From contig NZ_CP030032.1 in the NCBI RefSeq assembly GCF_003258315.1, positions 2,953,804 to 3,017,803 on the forward strand: a DNA stretch of 64,000 nucleotides, given 5' to 3'. Origin of the DNA: Bradymonas sediminis. Lineage in GTDB: Bacteria; Myxococcota_A; Bradymonadia; Bradymonadales; Bradymonadaceae. This document shows positions 30,245 to 40,250 of this stretch, piece by piece; the stretch's first letter is position 1; each line of letters opens with the position of its first letter. Position numbers and translations under genes: made by a program. Under the pieces are notes generated by a model that saw nothing but the letters and a program-made list of their open reading frames with translations, did not search any database and was not told the origin of the DNA.

Positions 30245-31720
30245 CACTCGTGTTCGGTTAAGCCGAAACCTCCTCAAAAGCGACCGTATCGGGCTTATGA
30301 GCCAGGGGAATCGCTGATAGGATGTCGTGTGAACCGGGTCTATTGCGATTGGGATCCGCAGCTTCGGCCGTCATCAGCTTGAACAAATCAATCCGGCGCG
30401 CCCCCCGTTTCTGGGCGATATGGAGCAATATTACGGTGGCGAAATCGCGAAAAACCGCGTCCATGCGCTGGGCGGGATAGGTGCGGCCAGGGTTAATTTG
30501 GCGCAACACCTGTAGAAACGCGTTGGAGAGCAAAAGTGCGAGGATGGACGCGTAAATAAGCGCCTTGACGACTTCGGGTTTTGAGCTGGGAATCTGATTG
30601 AGACGCATCGTCGTTTTGAGCCGCGTAAACAATAGTTCGACCTGCCAGCGCAACCGGTAGGTCTGGGCGATCTCGTCGGCGCCGAGGGTTTCGGGGCCGA
30701 TATTGGTAAAATAGAGGTGGTATTGACCGGTTTCGGCATGTTTTTGGCCGACCAAGCGCATACGCATTTTCGCGGTTCGACTGCGACCGCGATACTTTCG
30801 AAGCTTCACGGGGACTTCGACTTCAACATCAATAATGCGGCGCTCAAGCCGCGCCAAGACGTCTTGGAGCTTCTGGCCGACTAAATTGATAGAGTTCCCC
30901 GCCACCCGCTGGTGGGAGGCGACGATGCGCGGGTTTGCGTTGGACTTGGCGCGGCTTAAGAAAAACCCGCCCTTTTTGGCGATGCGCCTGAATAAATGAA
31001 AATCGTAATAGCCCAGGTCGACCATCAGCAGGCAATTTTTGACCCACGAACCGACGGTCTTCCACGGGCCGATATCAGCCCGGGTCTGGCCGGTCATTTT
31101 AACCGAATTGGCGGTGCCTGACACGACGTTTGTGACCATATGCAACTTGGCTGCAGCCTGGCCAGGCTGGGTCGACGCCCATCTGTGGGCGAGCATCTGA
31201 TGAAGCCCGATGACGGTCGAATCCAGCGCCAGAAGCTCGCTGAAGCCGTCGAGGCGCTTGGCCGCGTTTTTGGTGATCGACTTCTTCTGCACCGCCAGCC
31301 TCCAGTCGACCAACCGTTTGATGAGGTCGGCCAGCAAACCGGTCAGCCGGTCGTGGAATGACGAACGGGCAATCGTGATGGACGCGACCTGCTGAAAGCG
31401 CCGCCTCAGCGAGGCGATGCTCCGTTTAGAGCCCGCCGGAAACCCCAACACAAGCGTCCAGACGAGCATGACTGGGTCGACCTTGCGCTCTCGCACGACG
31501 ACGCCGAGCGCCCGCGCATACTTTTCGATGACAAAGTCTGGAAGAAAGGTTGTCAAAAACTCGAGAGTTTGTTTAGAATCGATGTGCGCCATCATAGCTC
31601 CTTTTTTGTTCGTGTAACGATCGACTAATCGCACCATGAACATGGGAGATATGATGGCGTTTTTCAATGTCTGACGGAGTTTAAAGCGGGGGGGGGTGGG
31701 GGCTTAACCGATCACGAGTG
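30245..31720 (-). mobile_element. IS4-family insertion sequence, copy 1
   Basis: 1476 bp with 18-bp ends CACTCGTGTTCGGTTAAG and CACTCGTGATCGGTTAAG (17 of 18 match). Nearly identical to copy 2 at 33464-34936. Flanks do not match each other (Rhs DNA on the left, a transposase fragment on the right), so there is no target duplication and an adjacent rearrangement must have occurred. Confidence 0.9.
30258..31667 (-). CDS. IS4-family DDE transposase, copy 1
   Basis: 469 residues. DDE motifs: LLALDSTVIGLHQ (first Asp), CLLMVDLGYYDFHLF (second Asp) and YRLRWQVELLFTRLK, which contains the Y-x2-R-x3-E-x6-K signature of IS4 elements with the catalytic Glu. The N-terminal domain (FLTTFLPDFVIEKYARALGV) is of the DUF4372 type. 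It differs from the second copy by a single residue (Ser for Thr in SKRSIAS). The stop lies inside the terminal repeat. GGAG precedes the ATG-proximal MAHIDSKQ start at 31592, which could be the real start of a slightly shorter protein. Confidence 0.9.
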   Translation of the reverse strand: MKNAIISPMFMVRLVDRYTNKKGAMMAHIDSKQTLEFLTTFLPDFVIEKYARALGVVVRERKVDPVMLVWTLVLGFPAGSKRSIASLRRRFQQVASITIARSSFHDRLTGLLADLIKRLVDWRLAVQKKSITKNAAKRLDGFSELLALDSTVIGLHQMLAHRWASTQPGQAAAKLHMVTNVVSGTANSVKMTGQTRADIGPWKTVGSWVKNCLLMVDLGYYDFHLFRRIAKKGGFFLSRAKSNANPRIVASHQRVAGNSINLVGQKLQDVLARLERRIIDVEVEVPVKLRKYRGRSRTAKMRMRLVGQKHAETGQYHLYFTNIGPETLGADEIAQTYRLRWQVELLFTRLKTTMRLNQIPSSKPEVVKALIYASILALLLSNAFLQVLRQINPGRTYPAQRMDAVFRDFATVILLHIAQKRGARRIDLFKLMTAEAADPNRNRPGSHDILSAIPLAHKPDTVAFEEVSA

Positions 31721-32339: not shown

Positions 32340-32590
32340 GCGCGCGTTCGCCCTAGGTTTGCAGGCGAAGACGGGCTTGTGATCAATCATGAGACCCAAT
32401 CCTATAAGGCTATACCCCATAACGTTATGATGCTGATCGCGTCAAAATTTACATCTAAATGAAAAATCACTCGTGAGGCTATCGCGCATAGCCTCACGAG
32501 TGAACTGTTGGTGGGTTGTCTTGATTATAGCAGTTTGCCAAAACGCTAGGAAAACAACGCCTAATCCCGCGAGCCTGCCGAAGCTCGTTT
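32340..32590. other. Intergenic region with a terminator
   Basis: No supported gene. Contains the hairpin at 32467-32503. Confidence 0.5.
32461..32503 (-). terminator. Terminator of the lipoprotein gene at 32591
   Basis: A perfect 16-bp inverted repeat (32467-32482 with 32488-32503, 5-base loop), followed on the minus strand by TTTTTC. Confidence 0.8.
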
Positions 32591-33100
32591 TTACTGAGAA
32601 GCGTCTTCGGTGAGTCTTGAAAATAGTGCTACCAAGCCACTCAGATGCCCTTTTGCGGTTCCTTCCACACTGGTAGGCACAAGACAAATAATACCATCAC
32701 TGCGTGATCCGCCCTCGCGGTCTCCGATGTCTATTGCATAAGAATCGGCATGGCCGTCACATCGCTCATAGGATGGTTCCGCAGCATCAGCCAACGCGAC
32801 TGCAGCGGCTGGTGTGGTGTGCGCTTCCAACTCTGTAAGATCGGCCTGCGATAATACGCCCGTCTTCGGTTGCTTAGGTCCATGGAGTATTTCGTAATTC
32901 CCATTAGGAAGTACACTGAGCATGACCCGCTCCTCGGCATTGTCCGCGGTCGGCGCAAAGTGTGACATATTCAACACGTAAATGGGTCCCGTGTCCGAAC
33001 CGCCACTTCCGCACGAAGTGCTGCCAAGCATGCACAGCAGCAAGAACAGAGGAACGATAGACACGCGACGACGAGCGGGTCGGTTGTTTAAGTGCGGCAT
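32591..33100 (-). CDS. Small lipoprotein of unknown function
   Basis: 169 residues from ATG 33100 with GGAGAG 7 bases upstream. A basic start and hydrophobic stretch (VSIVPLFLLLCMLGSTSC) end in a lipobox, Cys about 30 being lipidated. The mature part has no repeats or membrane segment; two further Cys (YERCDGHAD and DGIICLVP) could form a disulfide. I do not recognise the family; similar short lipoproteins are frequent in deltaproteobacterial genomes. A 126-bp MITE lies 34 bases upstream of the start and may have changed its promoter. A good terminator follows. Confidence 0.7.
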   Translation of the reverse strand: MPHLNNRPARRRVSIVPLFLLLCMLGSTSCGSGGSDTGPIYVLNMSHFAPTADNAEERVMLSVLPNGNYEILHGPKQPKTGVLSQADLTELEAHTTPAAAVALADAAEPSYERCDGHADSYAIDIGDREGGSRSDGIICLVPTSVEGTAKGHLSGLVALFSRLTEDASQ

Positions 33101-33134
33101 ATGTATGCTCTCCGAATTAAGTTGGTGAGTGAAT

Positions 33135-33260
33135 ATGAGCGTCAGTGGGTCTGCCTAGAACAAGGCTTCCATAAACTTTTAAAGTTGCTGCTTTGTCCAA
33201 AGTCCAGAAAGTCTTTCAAACGGCCCTTGAACCGTAAAAACTACCCCACTGACCGCTTAC
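33135..33260. mobile_element. IS66-related MITE
   Basis: 126 bp without a gene. Left end ATGAGCGTCAGTGGGTCTGC; right end reads (complement) GTAAGCGGTCAGTGGGGTAG. Both resemble the IS66 ends at 37579 and 39159 (GTAAGCGTTCAGTGGGTC). Flanked by direct repeats GAGTGAAT at 33127-33134 and 33261-33268, the 8-bp size expected for IS66 transposition. Confidence 0.75.
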
Positions 33261-33463
33261 GAGTGAATAGGTTATTAGCAGGTGGAATATGTATAGCCTG
33301 CAGAATTCATCCGCATGCACGGATCAGTACTAAATCTATTTGCCAAATAGTAGTTACCTTCTGTCACCGCTGATGAACGAATTGAACTGTTAATCCAGTT
33401 GCTCCGAGCGGTGGTCGCAAACCAATTCAAATACAGCACGGTATAAGCATTGGCCCCCTTACC

Positions 33464-34936
33464 CACTCGTGTTCGGTTAAGCCGAAACCTCCTCAAAAGC
33501 GACCGTATCGGGCTTATGAGCCAGGGGAATCGCTGATAGGATGTCGTGTGAACCGGGTCTATTGCGATTGGGATCCGCAGCTTCGGCCGTCATCAGCTTG
33601 AACAAATCAATCCGGCGCGCTCCCCGTTTCTGGGCGATATGGAGCAATATTACGGTGGCGAAGTCGCGAAAAACCGCGTCCATGCGCTGGGCGGGATAGG
33701 TGCGGCCAGGGTTAATTTGGCGCAACACCTGTAAAAACGCGTTGGAGAGCAAAAGTGCGAGGATGGACGCGTAAATAAGCGCCTTGACGACTTCGGGTTT
33801 TGAGCTGGGAATCTGATTGAGACGCATCGTCGTTTTGAGCCGCGTAAACAATAGTTCGACCTGCCAGCGCAACCGGTAGGTCTGGGCGATCTCGTCGGCG
33901 CCGAGGGTTTCGGGGCCGATATTGGTAAAATAGAGGTGGTATTGACCGGTTTCGGCATGTTTTTGGCCGACCAAGCGCATACGCATTTTCGCGGTTCGAC
34001 TGCGACCGCGATACTTTCGAAGCTTCACGGGGACTTCGACTTCAACATCAATAATGCGGCGCTCAAGCCGCGCCAAGACGTCTTGGAGCTTCTGGCCGAC
34101 TAAATTGATAGAGTTCCCCGCCACCCGCTGGTGGGAGGCGACGATGCGCGGGTTTGCGTTGGACTTGGCGCGGCTTAAGAAAAACCCGCCCTTTTTGGCG
34201 ATGCGCCTGAATAAATGAAAATCGTAATAGCCCAGGTCGACCATCAGCAGGCAATTTTTGACCCACGAACCGACGGTCTTCCACGGGCCGATATCAGCCC
34301 GGGTCTGGCCGGTCATTTTAACCGAATTGGCGGTGCCTGACACGACGTTTGTGACCATATGCAACTTGGCTGCAGCCTGGCCAGGCTGAGTCGACGCCCA
34401 TCTGTGGGCGAGCATCTGATGAAGCCCGATGACGGTCGAATCCAGCGCCAGAAGCTCGCTGAAGCCGTCGAGGCGCTTGGCCGCGTTTTTGGTGATCGAC
34501 TTCTTCTGCACCGCCAGCCTCCAGTCGACCAACCGTTTGATGAGGTCGGCCAGCAAACCGGTCAGCCGGTCGTGGAATGACGAACGGGCAATCGTGATGG
34601 ACGCGACCTGCTGAAAGCGGCGCCTCAGCGAGGCGATGGTCCGTTTAGAGCCCGCCGGAAACCCCAACACAAGCGTCCAGACGAGCATGACTGGGTCGAC
34701 CTTGCGCTCTCGCACGACGACGCCGAGCGCCCGCGCATACTTTTCGATGACAAAGTCTGGAAGAAAGGTTGTCAAAAACTCGAGAGTTTGTTTAGAATCG
34801 ATGTGCGCCATCATAGCTCCTTTTTTGTTCGTGTAACGATCGACTAATCGCACCATGAACATGGGAGATATGATGGCGTTTTTCAATGTCTGACGGAGTT
34901 TAAAGCGAGGGGTGGGGGCTTAACCGATCACGAGTG
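33464..34936 (-). mobile_element. IS4-family insertion sequence, copy 2
   Basis: 1473 bp, same ends as copy 1, flanked by a perfect 10-bp target duplication CCCCCTTACC (33454-33463 and 34937-34946). It differs from copy 1 by a few bases, including a shorter G run near its right end. Confidence 0.92.
33477..34886 (-). CDS. IS4-family DDE transposase, copy 2
   Basis: 469 residues, identical to copy 1 at 30258-31667 except Thr for Ser in SKRTIAS. It has the same DDE/YREK motifs (LALDST; MVDLGYYD; YRLRWQVELLFTRLK). The element keeps both ends and its target duplication, so it is a recent, intact insertion and could be the source of the other copy or derive from it. It lies inside the split protease gene. 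Confidence 0.9.
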   Translation of the reverse strand: MKNAIISPMFMVRLVDRYTNKKGAMMAHIDSKQTLEFLTTFLPDFVIEKYARALGVVVRERKVDPVMLVWTLVLGFPAGSKRTIASLRRRFQQVASITIARSSFHDRLTGLLADLIKRLVDWRLAVQKKSITKNAAKRLDGFSELLALDSTVIGLHQMLAHRWASTQPGQAAAKLHMVTNVVSGTANSVKMTGQTRADIGPWKTVGSWVKNCLLMVDLGYYDFHLFRRIAKKGGFFLSRAKSNANPRIVASHQRVAGNSINLVGQKLQDVLARLERRIIDVEVEVPVKLRKYRGRSRTAKMRMRLVGQKHAETGQYHLYFTNIGPETLGADEIAQTYRLRWQVELLFTRLKTTMRLNQIPSSKPEVVKALIYASILALLLSNAFLQVLRQINPGRTYPAQRMDAVFRDFATVILLHIAQKRGARRIDLFKLMTAEAADPNRNRPGSHDILSAIPLAHKPDTVAFEEVSA

Positions 34937-37578: not shown

Positions 37579-39159
37579 GTAAGCGTTCAGTGGGTCTACC
37601 TAAAATGGGGCTGACAGACACTTTTCGGGTTGCCTGAGCGCCTCCGGTTCCGACACTTAATGTGATGGAGATACTACCCGACAAACGTGATTTACGCATC
37701 GCCGAGCTCGAAGCCGAGAACGCCCGTCTTCGTGGATGCCTGAAGGAACGGGAACTTTATTGCGCCAAACTCGCCGCGCAACTCGAACAAGCGTTAAAGC
37801 GCATTGACCAATTGGAGCGCCAACTCGATTTGAATTCGCAGAACTCCTCGAAGCCGCCGTCCAGCGATGGGCCGAAGCAGCGTGCCCAGCGTAAAAAAAA
37901 AGAAAACGGAAAACGCGCCCAGGGCGCTCAAAAGGGGCATCCGGGCCACCACCGTGAGCTTTGGCCGCCGGAGAAGGTGGACCATCAAAAGCAGTATTTT
38001 CCCACAAATTGCTCAGAATGTGGGCTCGAGCTAGCGGCTGAAGATGCACGCGGCGAGCCGGTGCGCCATCAAGTTTTTGAGGTTCCGCCGAAGCTTATCG
38101 AATGCACCGAACACCAGCGCATGGCCTGTGAGTGCCCGGGGTGCGGGCATCGAACGCGCGCAAAGCTGCCCGAAGCGGTCGAAAAAAGCGGTTGGGGGCC
38201 GCGCCTGGTTGGGCTGCTGGCCACACTTGGAACGCTTACGACGGACACGCGCCGGCAACTCGACTGGTTTGTCGGCGAGGTGCTCGGCGCGCCCAGCTCG
38301 CTCGGGTGCGTGCAGCGCCATCTTGAGGAGGCAAGCGCCGCGCTAAAGCCCGGATTCGATCAGGCGTGCACGGCGATTCAGCGGGCCGAGCAGGTCGGGG
38401 TCGATGAAACCGGCTGGCGAAAAGGCCGACTTCCGCATTGGATCTGGGTCATTCAGAGCGCACAGGCTGCCGTCTATCGGATCCGGTCGGGTCGTACTAA
38501 AGCGGTCGCCCAGGAGATTATCGGCGCCCCCGGCGCGCGTATCTTCGTTACCGATCGCTACGGCGCGTACTCATATTTGGCGGCCGAACGTCATCAAATT
38601 TGTCATGCGCACCTGCTACGCGAGTTTGTAAAAATGTCGGAACTCGACGGCGAAGTCGGCCAGATTGGCAAGAAATTGGAGGTCATGAGCCGCGAACTTC
38701 AGGGTAAATGGGCGCGCACGAACGCCGATGAAATCCCGCACGAAAAATGCGTCATATGGGTCCGCCAAAAGGTGCGCCCAAAGTGGGAAGCCTTGCTCAA
38801 AAAGGCGGCGGCCCACGGGAAAGCCGCGCCGGCGGTAGTTCGCTGGCTTCTAAAAGATAAGCATCTAAAGATGGCCTGGGTTTTTCTGGAACACCCCGGC
38901 GTTGAGATGACCAACAACGCCTCGGAGCGCGCGCTTCGCGGGCCAGTGGTCCAGCGAAAGATCTCCTGGGGCTCGCAATCCAACGCCGGATTGCGGATGA
39001 TGGAGCGGCTGTGGACCATCGCAGAGACTTGCAAGCGCCAGTCGATCAGCGCCCTCGATTATATCACCCAAGCGGTTGAGGCGCTGAGAAATGAGGCACC
39101 AGCACCGCTCTTGATCGCGTAAATGGCTGACGTTTAGGTCGACCCGCTGAACGCTTACG
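37579..39159 (+). mobile_element. IS66-family insertion sequence (single-gene type)
   Basis: 1581 bp with ends GTAAGCGTTCAGTGGGTCTA and (complement) GTAAGCGTTCAGCGGGTCGA; 25 of about 27 positions match. Only the tnpC-type gene is present (no tnpA/tnpB), as in ISBst12-like members. The flanking 8-mers (CCCCGCAT and GCTAGAAT) differ, so no target duplication remains. Confidence 0.9.
37665..39122 (+). CDS. tnpC: IS66-family transposase
   Basis: 485 residues from ATG 37665 (a GTG codon directly precedes). An N-terminal leucine zipper (LRIAELEAENARLRGCLKER) is followed by LNSQNSSKPPSSDGPK, the hallmark of IS66 TnpC, then a four-Cys zinc finger (C-x2-C ... C-x-C-x2-C), and the DDE core with GVDETGWRKG, FVTDRYGAYSYL, H-x-C-H-A-H-L-L-R-E-F and EMTNNASERALRGPVVQRK. 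Intact. The element may supply transposase for the IS66-like MITE at 33135. Confidence 0.93.
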   Translation: MEILPDKRDLRIAELEAENARLRGCLKERELYCAKLAAQLEQALKRIDQLERQLDLNSQNSSKPPSSDGPKQRAQRKKKENGKRAQGAQKGHPGHHRELWPPEKVDHQKQYFPTNCSECGLELAAEDARGEPVRHQVFEVPPKLIECTEHQRMACECPGCGHRTRAKLPEAVEKSGWGPRLVGLLATLGTLTTDTRRQLDWFVGEVLGAPSSLGCVQRHLEEASAALKPGFDQACTAIQRAEQVGVDETGWRKGRLPHWIWVIQSAQAAVYRIRSGRTKAVAQEIIGAPGARIFVTDRYGAYSYLAAERHQICHAHLLREFVKMSELDGEVGQIGKKLEVMSRELQGKWARTNADEIPHEKCVIWVRQKVRPKWEALLKKAAAHGKAAPAVVRWLLKDKHLKMAWVFLEHPGVEMTNNASERALRGPVVQRKISWGSQSNAGLRMMERLWTIAETCKRQSISALDYITQAVEALRNEAPAPLLIA

Positions 39160-40250
39160 CTAGAATTTGTTGGGGATGTACCAGCGGTTTCTGATTTGGG
39201 TCAAGTTCACTACTCTTATTTTTATATAACTTTAATACCCCTCATCGTTCACACGGTAACCTTTCAATCTCATCCCCGGTCGACAATCCACCACCGTTTG
39301 ATTGACTTGCTTAGATAAGCGCATGGTCTCGCATGATCACTCCGGGGGGCTCAGGGGGGGGGCAAACGGGCGCAACACTTTGCTGATACGCAATGTACCG
39401 CAACGTCTTGCTGGTTAGGCGACGCAACGCGACGCTTTGCCGATAAGCGACGCATCGCAACGCATCGCAGGTACGCAGCCCCCTTCGGTCGCTTCGCGAC
39501 ATCTTCCCCATAGGGGAAGAAATGCTGTTGCCCCTGCTGGGCGGTGGATGGGGCGCTTCTGGTACGCGACGCACCGCAAATCTAAAGCGCCCCGCTAGCG
39601 CAACCGTAATCCTCCGCCCCGCAGGGGGAGGTGCCTGCGCAGCAGGCGGAGGGGGGAGCTGCAAATCGGCGAGGCGTTGCTGATACGCAACGCACAATTT
39701 TCGAGGCGTTGCTGATACGCGACGTCTCGCAACGCGACGCCTTGCCGATACGCGACGCACCGCAACGCCTCGCTGGTACGCAGCCCCCCTTCTGTCGCTT
39801 CGCGACATCTTCCCCAGAGGGGAAGATCTACTGTTGCGCCTGCGGGGCGCTTCTGATGGGCGGTGTTCGCGGCGCTTCGGGTGGGCGGTGTTCGCGGCGC
39901 GTCGTGTACGCCGCGCCCCAAACAATCCCAGCCTATCCCCCCTGCAAACCACGGCGCAAATTCGCTGGAACAATCCTCAAGCCACGCGCGTTGGCGGCAG
40001 TAGACGAAGGGGAGCGGGCCGGAACGCCGCGCTTAATCGGGCCTGGGCGAAACGAATTAAATGAATCGCCCCTCACTTCTTGACCCACCGCACTCCTTGC
40101 GCCATGGTAGCGCCAGAATTTCGACGGGTAGGTCGTTTTTCGCGCCACCCCTTGTAAATATCCATCCCCGATTCTGCGTGGGATGTTTTAAGTTTAATAT
40201 TATACGCCTGGTATTACCCACCGAACCTCTTTGCACCGAGAGCCAAAGCC
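39160..40250. repeat. Intergenic region with degenerate repeat tract
   Basis: About 1.1 kb without a supported gene. 39360-39900 is made of the same units as 19990-20560: TTGCTGATACGCAACGC-type 17-mers, and two copies of the longer unit CCTTCTGTCGCTTCGCGACA plus CTTCCCCAGAGGGGAAGA (39472-39545, 39779-39860). A diverged GC-rich palindrome lies at 39600-39655. 39900-40250 is plain sequence and should hold the sucA promoter. Confidence 0.7.

Follow-up and report, generated by a model that had tools for sequence, protein, structure and literature searches.

The 126 bp at positions 33135–33260 of the window (the whole stretch of 64,000 nucleotides of Bradymonas sediminis DNA analysed here) are best explained as a MITE-like IS66 relative, devoid of a transposase gene, that an IS66-type transposase inserted in trans, a reading to which we assign a probability of about 0.65. 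That the segment derives from IS66, by whichever route, we hold with great confidence. Taken by itself, it is probably an ordinary, worn, single IS66-derived mini-element, the relic of a MITE. The relevant features of the window are the following.

32591–33100, minus strand: putative lipoprotein gene (N-terminus judged by eye; no Pfam family)
33127–33134, plus strand: target duplication GAGTGAAT, lipoprotein side
33135–33260, no strand assigned: IS66-ended non-autonomous element, 126 bp, without a recognisable gene
33135–33149, plus strand: left tip ATGAGCGTCAGTGGG, worn (two substitutions and one deletion relative to the IS66 tip)
33150–33189 (approximate limits), plus strand: subterminal stretch on the left, similar to the left end of IS66 (by sequence match and shuffles)
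33244–33260, minus strand: right tip GTAAGCGGTCAGTGGGG (one mismatch to GTAAGCGTTCAGTGGG over 16 bases)
33261–33268, plus strand: target duplication GAGTGAAT, far side
37579–39158, plus strand: IS66 element with one transposase ORF (37662–39122), likely a relative of the source

The original prediction had placed a 126-bp segment between 8-bp repeats, and a re-reading of positions 33127–33268 showed these coordinates to be exact, with a perfect GAGTGAAT on either side. The direct identity actually extends over 9 bp (GAGTGAATA), as the segment begins with the base that also comes next in the flank. The left tip reads ATGAGCG-TCAGTGGG and departs from GTAAGCGTTCAGTGGG by two substitutions and a missing base. 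On the minus strand, reading inward, the right tip has one mismatch in 16 bases with the left tip of the IS66 copy located 4.3 kb away, whose own two tips show 0 and 1 mismatch to GTAAGCGTTCAGTGGG. The ends are thus IS66-like as predicted, imperfectly so on the left. The interior is also free of genes as far as tested: a 93-aa mechanical ORF (33092–33373) that runs across the element matched no Pfam family up to E = 1. A search of Rfam gave no match in 32900–33480.

The likeness to IS66 continues past the tips. In a search of the element's own genome (5,045,683 bases, one contig), positions 4–54 of the element were 75% identical to the IS66 left end. When the first 16 bases were set aside, the left arm and its counterpart in the window's IS66 copy matched at a level that 1 of 2000 shuffles reached; for the right arms the figure was 4 of 2000, a modest result given that eight arm comparisons were made. 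The crossed comparisons were unremarkable (1765 and 513 of 2000 shuffles as good), and so were all four comparisons with the most diverged resident copy of IS66 (261, 1884, 433 and 1999 of 2000). The segment therefore combines IS66 tips (the left one imperfect), an 8-bp duplication, a short length and the lack of a transposase with some similarity, modest in both arms, to the parental insertion sequence.

The genome contains three near-identical IS66 copies and a fourth at 84%, and the transposase frame is open in all four. The resident transposase has a DDE_Tnp_IS66 domain, and between the tips of the window's copy every other ORF of at least 80 aa overlaps the transposase ORF. IS66 elements are described as duplicating 8 bp of target in two sources (PMC12898284, PMC3281130). 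By eye, the fourth copy is flanked by an exact 8-bp repeat, TTTTGGGT, and one other copy by a repeat matching at 7 of 8 positions; the flanks of the remaining two differ at 3 and 4 of 8, the window's copy being the one with 4. PMC12898284 gives ISDge4, of the ISBst12 group, one ORF, an 8-bp duplication and the tips GTGACTACTCAGCA and GTAACTGCTCAGCA. The resident IS66, which also has a single transposase ORF with a DDE_Tnp_IS66 domain, would fit this single-ORF group as so described, whereas the window element is 126 bp long and has no transposase ORF. In the intergenic stretch beyond the window's IS66 (39370–39900), degenerate short repeats around GATACGCGACGCACCGCAACGC were seen by eye.

Against the refuting condition given with the original prediction (no other copies and no empty site in relatives), the element fares badly. 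It is single-copy in its own genome, where everything else that matched was short (two of these fragments being left ends of IS66 copies), and 20 further genomes of the family contained no match at E ≤ 0.001. Those 20 genomes also yielded no match to the lipoprotein gene, and a search of the element's own genome revealed no second copy of its flanks. Among plasmid records there were five short matches, which spanned 14–22% of the query. Thus, of the predicted IS66-related MITE, the relation to IS66 stands (tips, 8-bp duplication, both arms and the existence of other short elements) and the multiple copies do not; since a single copy does not prove a MITE family, we call the element MITE-like.

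Searches by tips and by paired tips identified three better-preserved short elements with IS66 ends in the same genome, at the following genome coordinates.

2454168–2454289: 122-bp IS66-ended element, AAAAGAAA flanks
2454298–2454416: 119-bp IS66-ended element, AAAAGAAA flanks
4787147–4787266: third short IS66-ended element, AGGCAGTT/AGGCAATT flanks (7 of 8 identical)

The first two adjoin, and three copies of AAAAGAAA flank and separate them; the arrangement (2454168–2454416, or L050:1669-1917) looks as if the second had been inserted into the target duplication made by the first. Their interiors are related (0 of 1000 shuffles as good), and their left arms resemble those of the window's IS66 (10 and 0 of 2000 shuffles) and of the fourth IS66 copy (1 and 0 of 2000). 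The interior of the third consists of two palindromes. Kinship between the interior of the window element and those of these three elements is unproven, the two best comparisons being equalled by 116 and 15 of 1000 shuffles and the third by at least 688. We discounted isolated tips with as many as three mismatches, as these matched 18 and 19 times and the reversed control 22 and 20 times. Elsewhere in the genome, a tandem array (L051:1414-2686, genome positions 2325413–2326685) comprises about 13 units of 99 bp, each with two palindromes (GGAGCCAGGTCATCTTGACCTGG and CCAGACCTGGAAGGTCTGG) and one degenerate IS66-like tip; single units resembling this array also occur at other places.

Short IS66-ended elements are present in other genomes as well, which lends support to the derivation from IS66. 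Within the family, a paired-tip pattern matched in 3 of 21 genomes, at three places in the element's own genome and at 22 and 1 in the others, while the reversed control produced one match among the 21, in a different genome. The window element fails this pattern and, owing to its left tip, would also be missed by the stricter one applied to a public genome collection. The public scan returned 71 stretches with 72 elements; their lengths, 104–134 bp, are set by the pattern and are uninformative on a preferred size. These elements have the same tips as the window element, and an exact 8-bp flanking repeat was found in 28 of the 71 that could be tested, with a one-base difference in 4 more. Exact repeats of lengths 4–7 and 9–12 occurred in 0–2 elements each. 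The 28 exact cases are spread over 8 assemblies (counted by accession prefix), and elements of the same group are not independent. Viral contigs contained no match to the paired-tip pattern.

When the 72 public elements were compared with the four of the B. sediminis genome (BLAST, E < 1e-4), they fell into 22 groups, and the window element stood alone, its interior being unrelated to those of the public elements at that threshold. The largest group comprised 18 elements of one Myxococcales MAG (SKQC), 13 of them with exact and 2 with near-exact repeats; judging from shared coordinates, this MAG is probably the family genome with 22 pattern matches. Record titles included Myxococcales, Deltaproteobacteria, Desulfobulbaceae, Chloroflexi, Anaerolineales, Thermoflexia, Nitrospirae, Elusimicrobia, Methylomirabilota and Bacillota, and those of the exact-repeat elements included Myxococcales, Nitrospirae, Elusimicrobia and Thermoflexia. 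That the interiors are hairpins is an impression, drawn from the energies of one element per group computed without shuffles; the energy of the window element was the weakest among those printed.

Groups of 16 (second in size), 3 and 2 elements showed the 8-bp repeat in no testable case. The 12 listed members of the 16-element group are titled Deltaproteobacteria or Desulfobulbaceae, as are the checked titles of the repeat-less groups overall, and these groups may represent a different kind of element. By eye, 7 of their 18 printed flanks share a similar sequence on one side only. The seven loci concerned (L097, L103, L106, L128, L131, L140 and L152) are GTAAGCGTTCAG-ended hairpins without 8-bp repeats, and the one-sided flank is approximately CCNGGANT; they are perhaps a different, site-choosing element.

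An association between mini-elements and IS66 transposase genes through shared genomes was not demonstrated. Of 28 genomes searched (all source genomes of the public scan except the SKQC one), 10 yielded such genes: 4 of the 7 that carry an element with exact repeats and 6 of the 21 others. The two other family genomes that carry such elements (86% and 93% complete) yielded none. All but one of the 28 are titled MAGs. Insertion sequences often assemble poorly in MAGs, so co-presence of the transposase neither proves nor refutes the link. Among 25 IS66 loci checked for pairs of GTAAGCGTTCAG tips (up to two mismatches, 900–3200 bases apart), many of them on short contigs, two were positive: L092, in the family genome G010, has both tips with 0 mismatches, no 8-bp repeat and a transposase frame with one stop, and L182 has two mismatches in its second tip and likewise no 8-bp repeat.

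A chance resemblance, in which unrelated intergenic DNA happened to contain a repeat, would sit easily with the imperfect left tip and with the single copy, and we nevertheless find it barely credible. In 60 dinucleotide-shuffled windows, tip pairs (up to four differences per tip, spacing 90–160 bp) arose three times and never with an exact 8-bp repeat, and in the real sequence the arms match IS66 past the tips too. Within the window, identical 8-mers 131–137 bases apart occur at 15 of 446,950 places, the site of the element included. When folded as DNA, the 142 bases including the repeats were more stable than 199 of 200 shuffles, as expected of paired tips.

The main rival is that a full IS66, inserted with an 8-bp duplication, was afterwards deleted internally where it stood, so that the 126 bases as such never moved. 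The element's being single-copy, the resemblance of both its arms to the resident IS66 and a worn left tip suited to an old insertion all fit this account. We consider it rather unlikely in view of the similar-sized elements with their own repeats in the same genome and the multi-copy groups with differing 8-bp repeats in other genomes, which indicate that mini-elements of this kind do spread; the size of the element proves little by itself, as lengths were limited by the search patterns. Our preferred reading, insertion in trans, has to accommodate the same single copy and degenerate left tip, the want of a clear 8-bp repeat at the window's IS66 and at one more resident copy, the failure of the window element to group with any of the 75 other short elements, and the presence of IS66 transposase genes in a minority of the genomes searched that carry such elements. 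According to this preferred reading, an internal deletion in an IS66 relative would have removed the transposase gene, leaving roughly 50 bases on the left and a shorter arm on the right. The deletion would have come before insertion at the present site, where an IS66-type DDE transposase acting in trans would have inserted the mini-element and duplicated 8 bases of target. Mobilisation by the resident IS66 transposase, as originally suggested, is plausible. The mini-element is probably immobile at its present site, since its left tip is worn.

The original prediction also hinted at a connection with the promoter of the adjacent gene, which encodes a putative lipoprotein of 169 aa without a Pfam match. 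The element indeed ends 34 bases ahead of the ATG at 33100, as had been stated, and promoters are carried by other bacterial MITEs according to a review (PMC10969869), so that the element might supply or reshape the promoter, a role compatible with the other readings. In a loose count of hexamer matches, made without a shuffle control, two pairs within the element, lying 70 and 77 bases ahead of the ATG, scored 8.0, and a pair formed by tip and flank, CTGACG-18-CTTAAT, scored 7.5 (15 bases before it). With the flanks joined as if the element were removed, the best pair scored 7.5, and the pairing of CTTAAT dropped to 7.0. The gain is half a match, and a consensus scan of 32500–33480 returned no promoter-like site on the strand of the gene. 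The hint found no support, and we regard a promoter role as improbable. Downstream of the gene, a near-perfect inverted repeat (32467–32503, 95%) is followed on the gene's strand by a T-rich stretch, judged by eye, and is likely a terminator.

Bacterial MITEs are already known as a kind, and the window element by itself matters little. In published reports, parents are suggested for MITEPsy1 (ISPsy2, 'IS5?'), MITECca01 (IS982) and MITEPye1 (IS1182), direct repeats are given for MITEPsy1 (4 nt) and MITEPye1, and the tips of MITEPsy2 are said to resemble a Tn3-family element. Like the first three, the window element is short, has inverted tips similar to those of an insertion sequence and lacks a transposase gene; it differs in being single-copy and in its parent family, which for those three is other than IS66, and its 8-bp duplication contrasts with the 4 nt of MITEPsy1. 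We found no IS66-derived MITE in our searches of the open-access literature, ISfinder excluded, which is weak evidence of absence. The string IS66 does not occur in a 2024 review of prokaryotic MITEs (PMC10969869), and another paper (PMC12888890) describes a MITE that lies within the remnant of an IS66 and has a 4-bp repeat.

The wider set is the more interesting result: IS66, for which the literature searched offered no MITE, is now tied to 72 short elements, many with the 8-bp signature. We tentatively propose, at somewhat less than even odds, that short IS66-ended elements with unrelated interiors form a widespread and largely unrecognised class in several phyla, that single-ORF and other IS66-type transposases repeatedly mobilise nearly any insert of ~100 bases between GTAAGCGTTCAG tips, and that the window element is a decayed member. 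The set offers an easy way to find out what a single-ORF IS66 transposase requires for moving DNA.

The lipoprotein gene and the mini-element also lie between two near-identical 469-aa transposase ORFs in the same orientation (30258–31667 and 33477–34886), in an arrangement like that of a composite transposon. The second ORF, the one of the pair that was scanned, has a DDE_Tnp_1 domain, and the end beside the first matches two further places in the genome.
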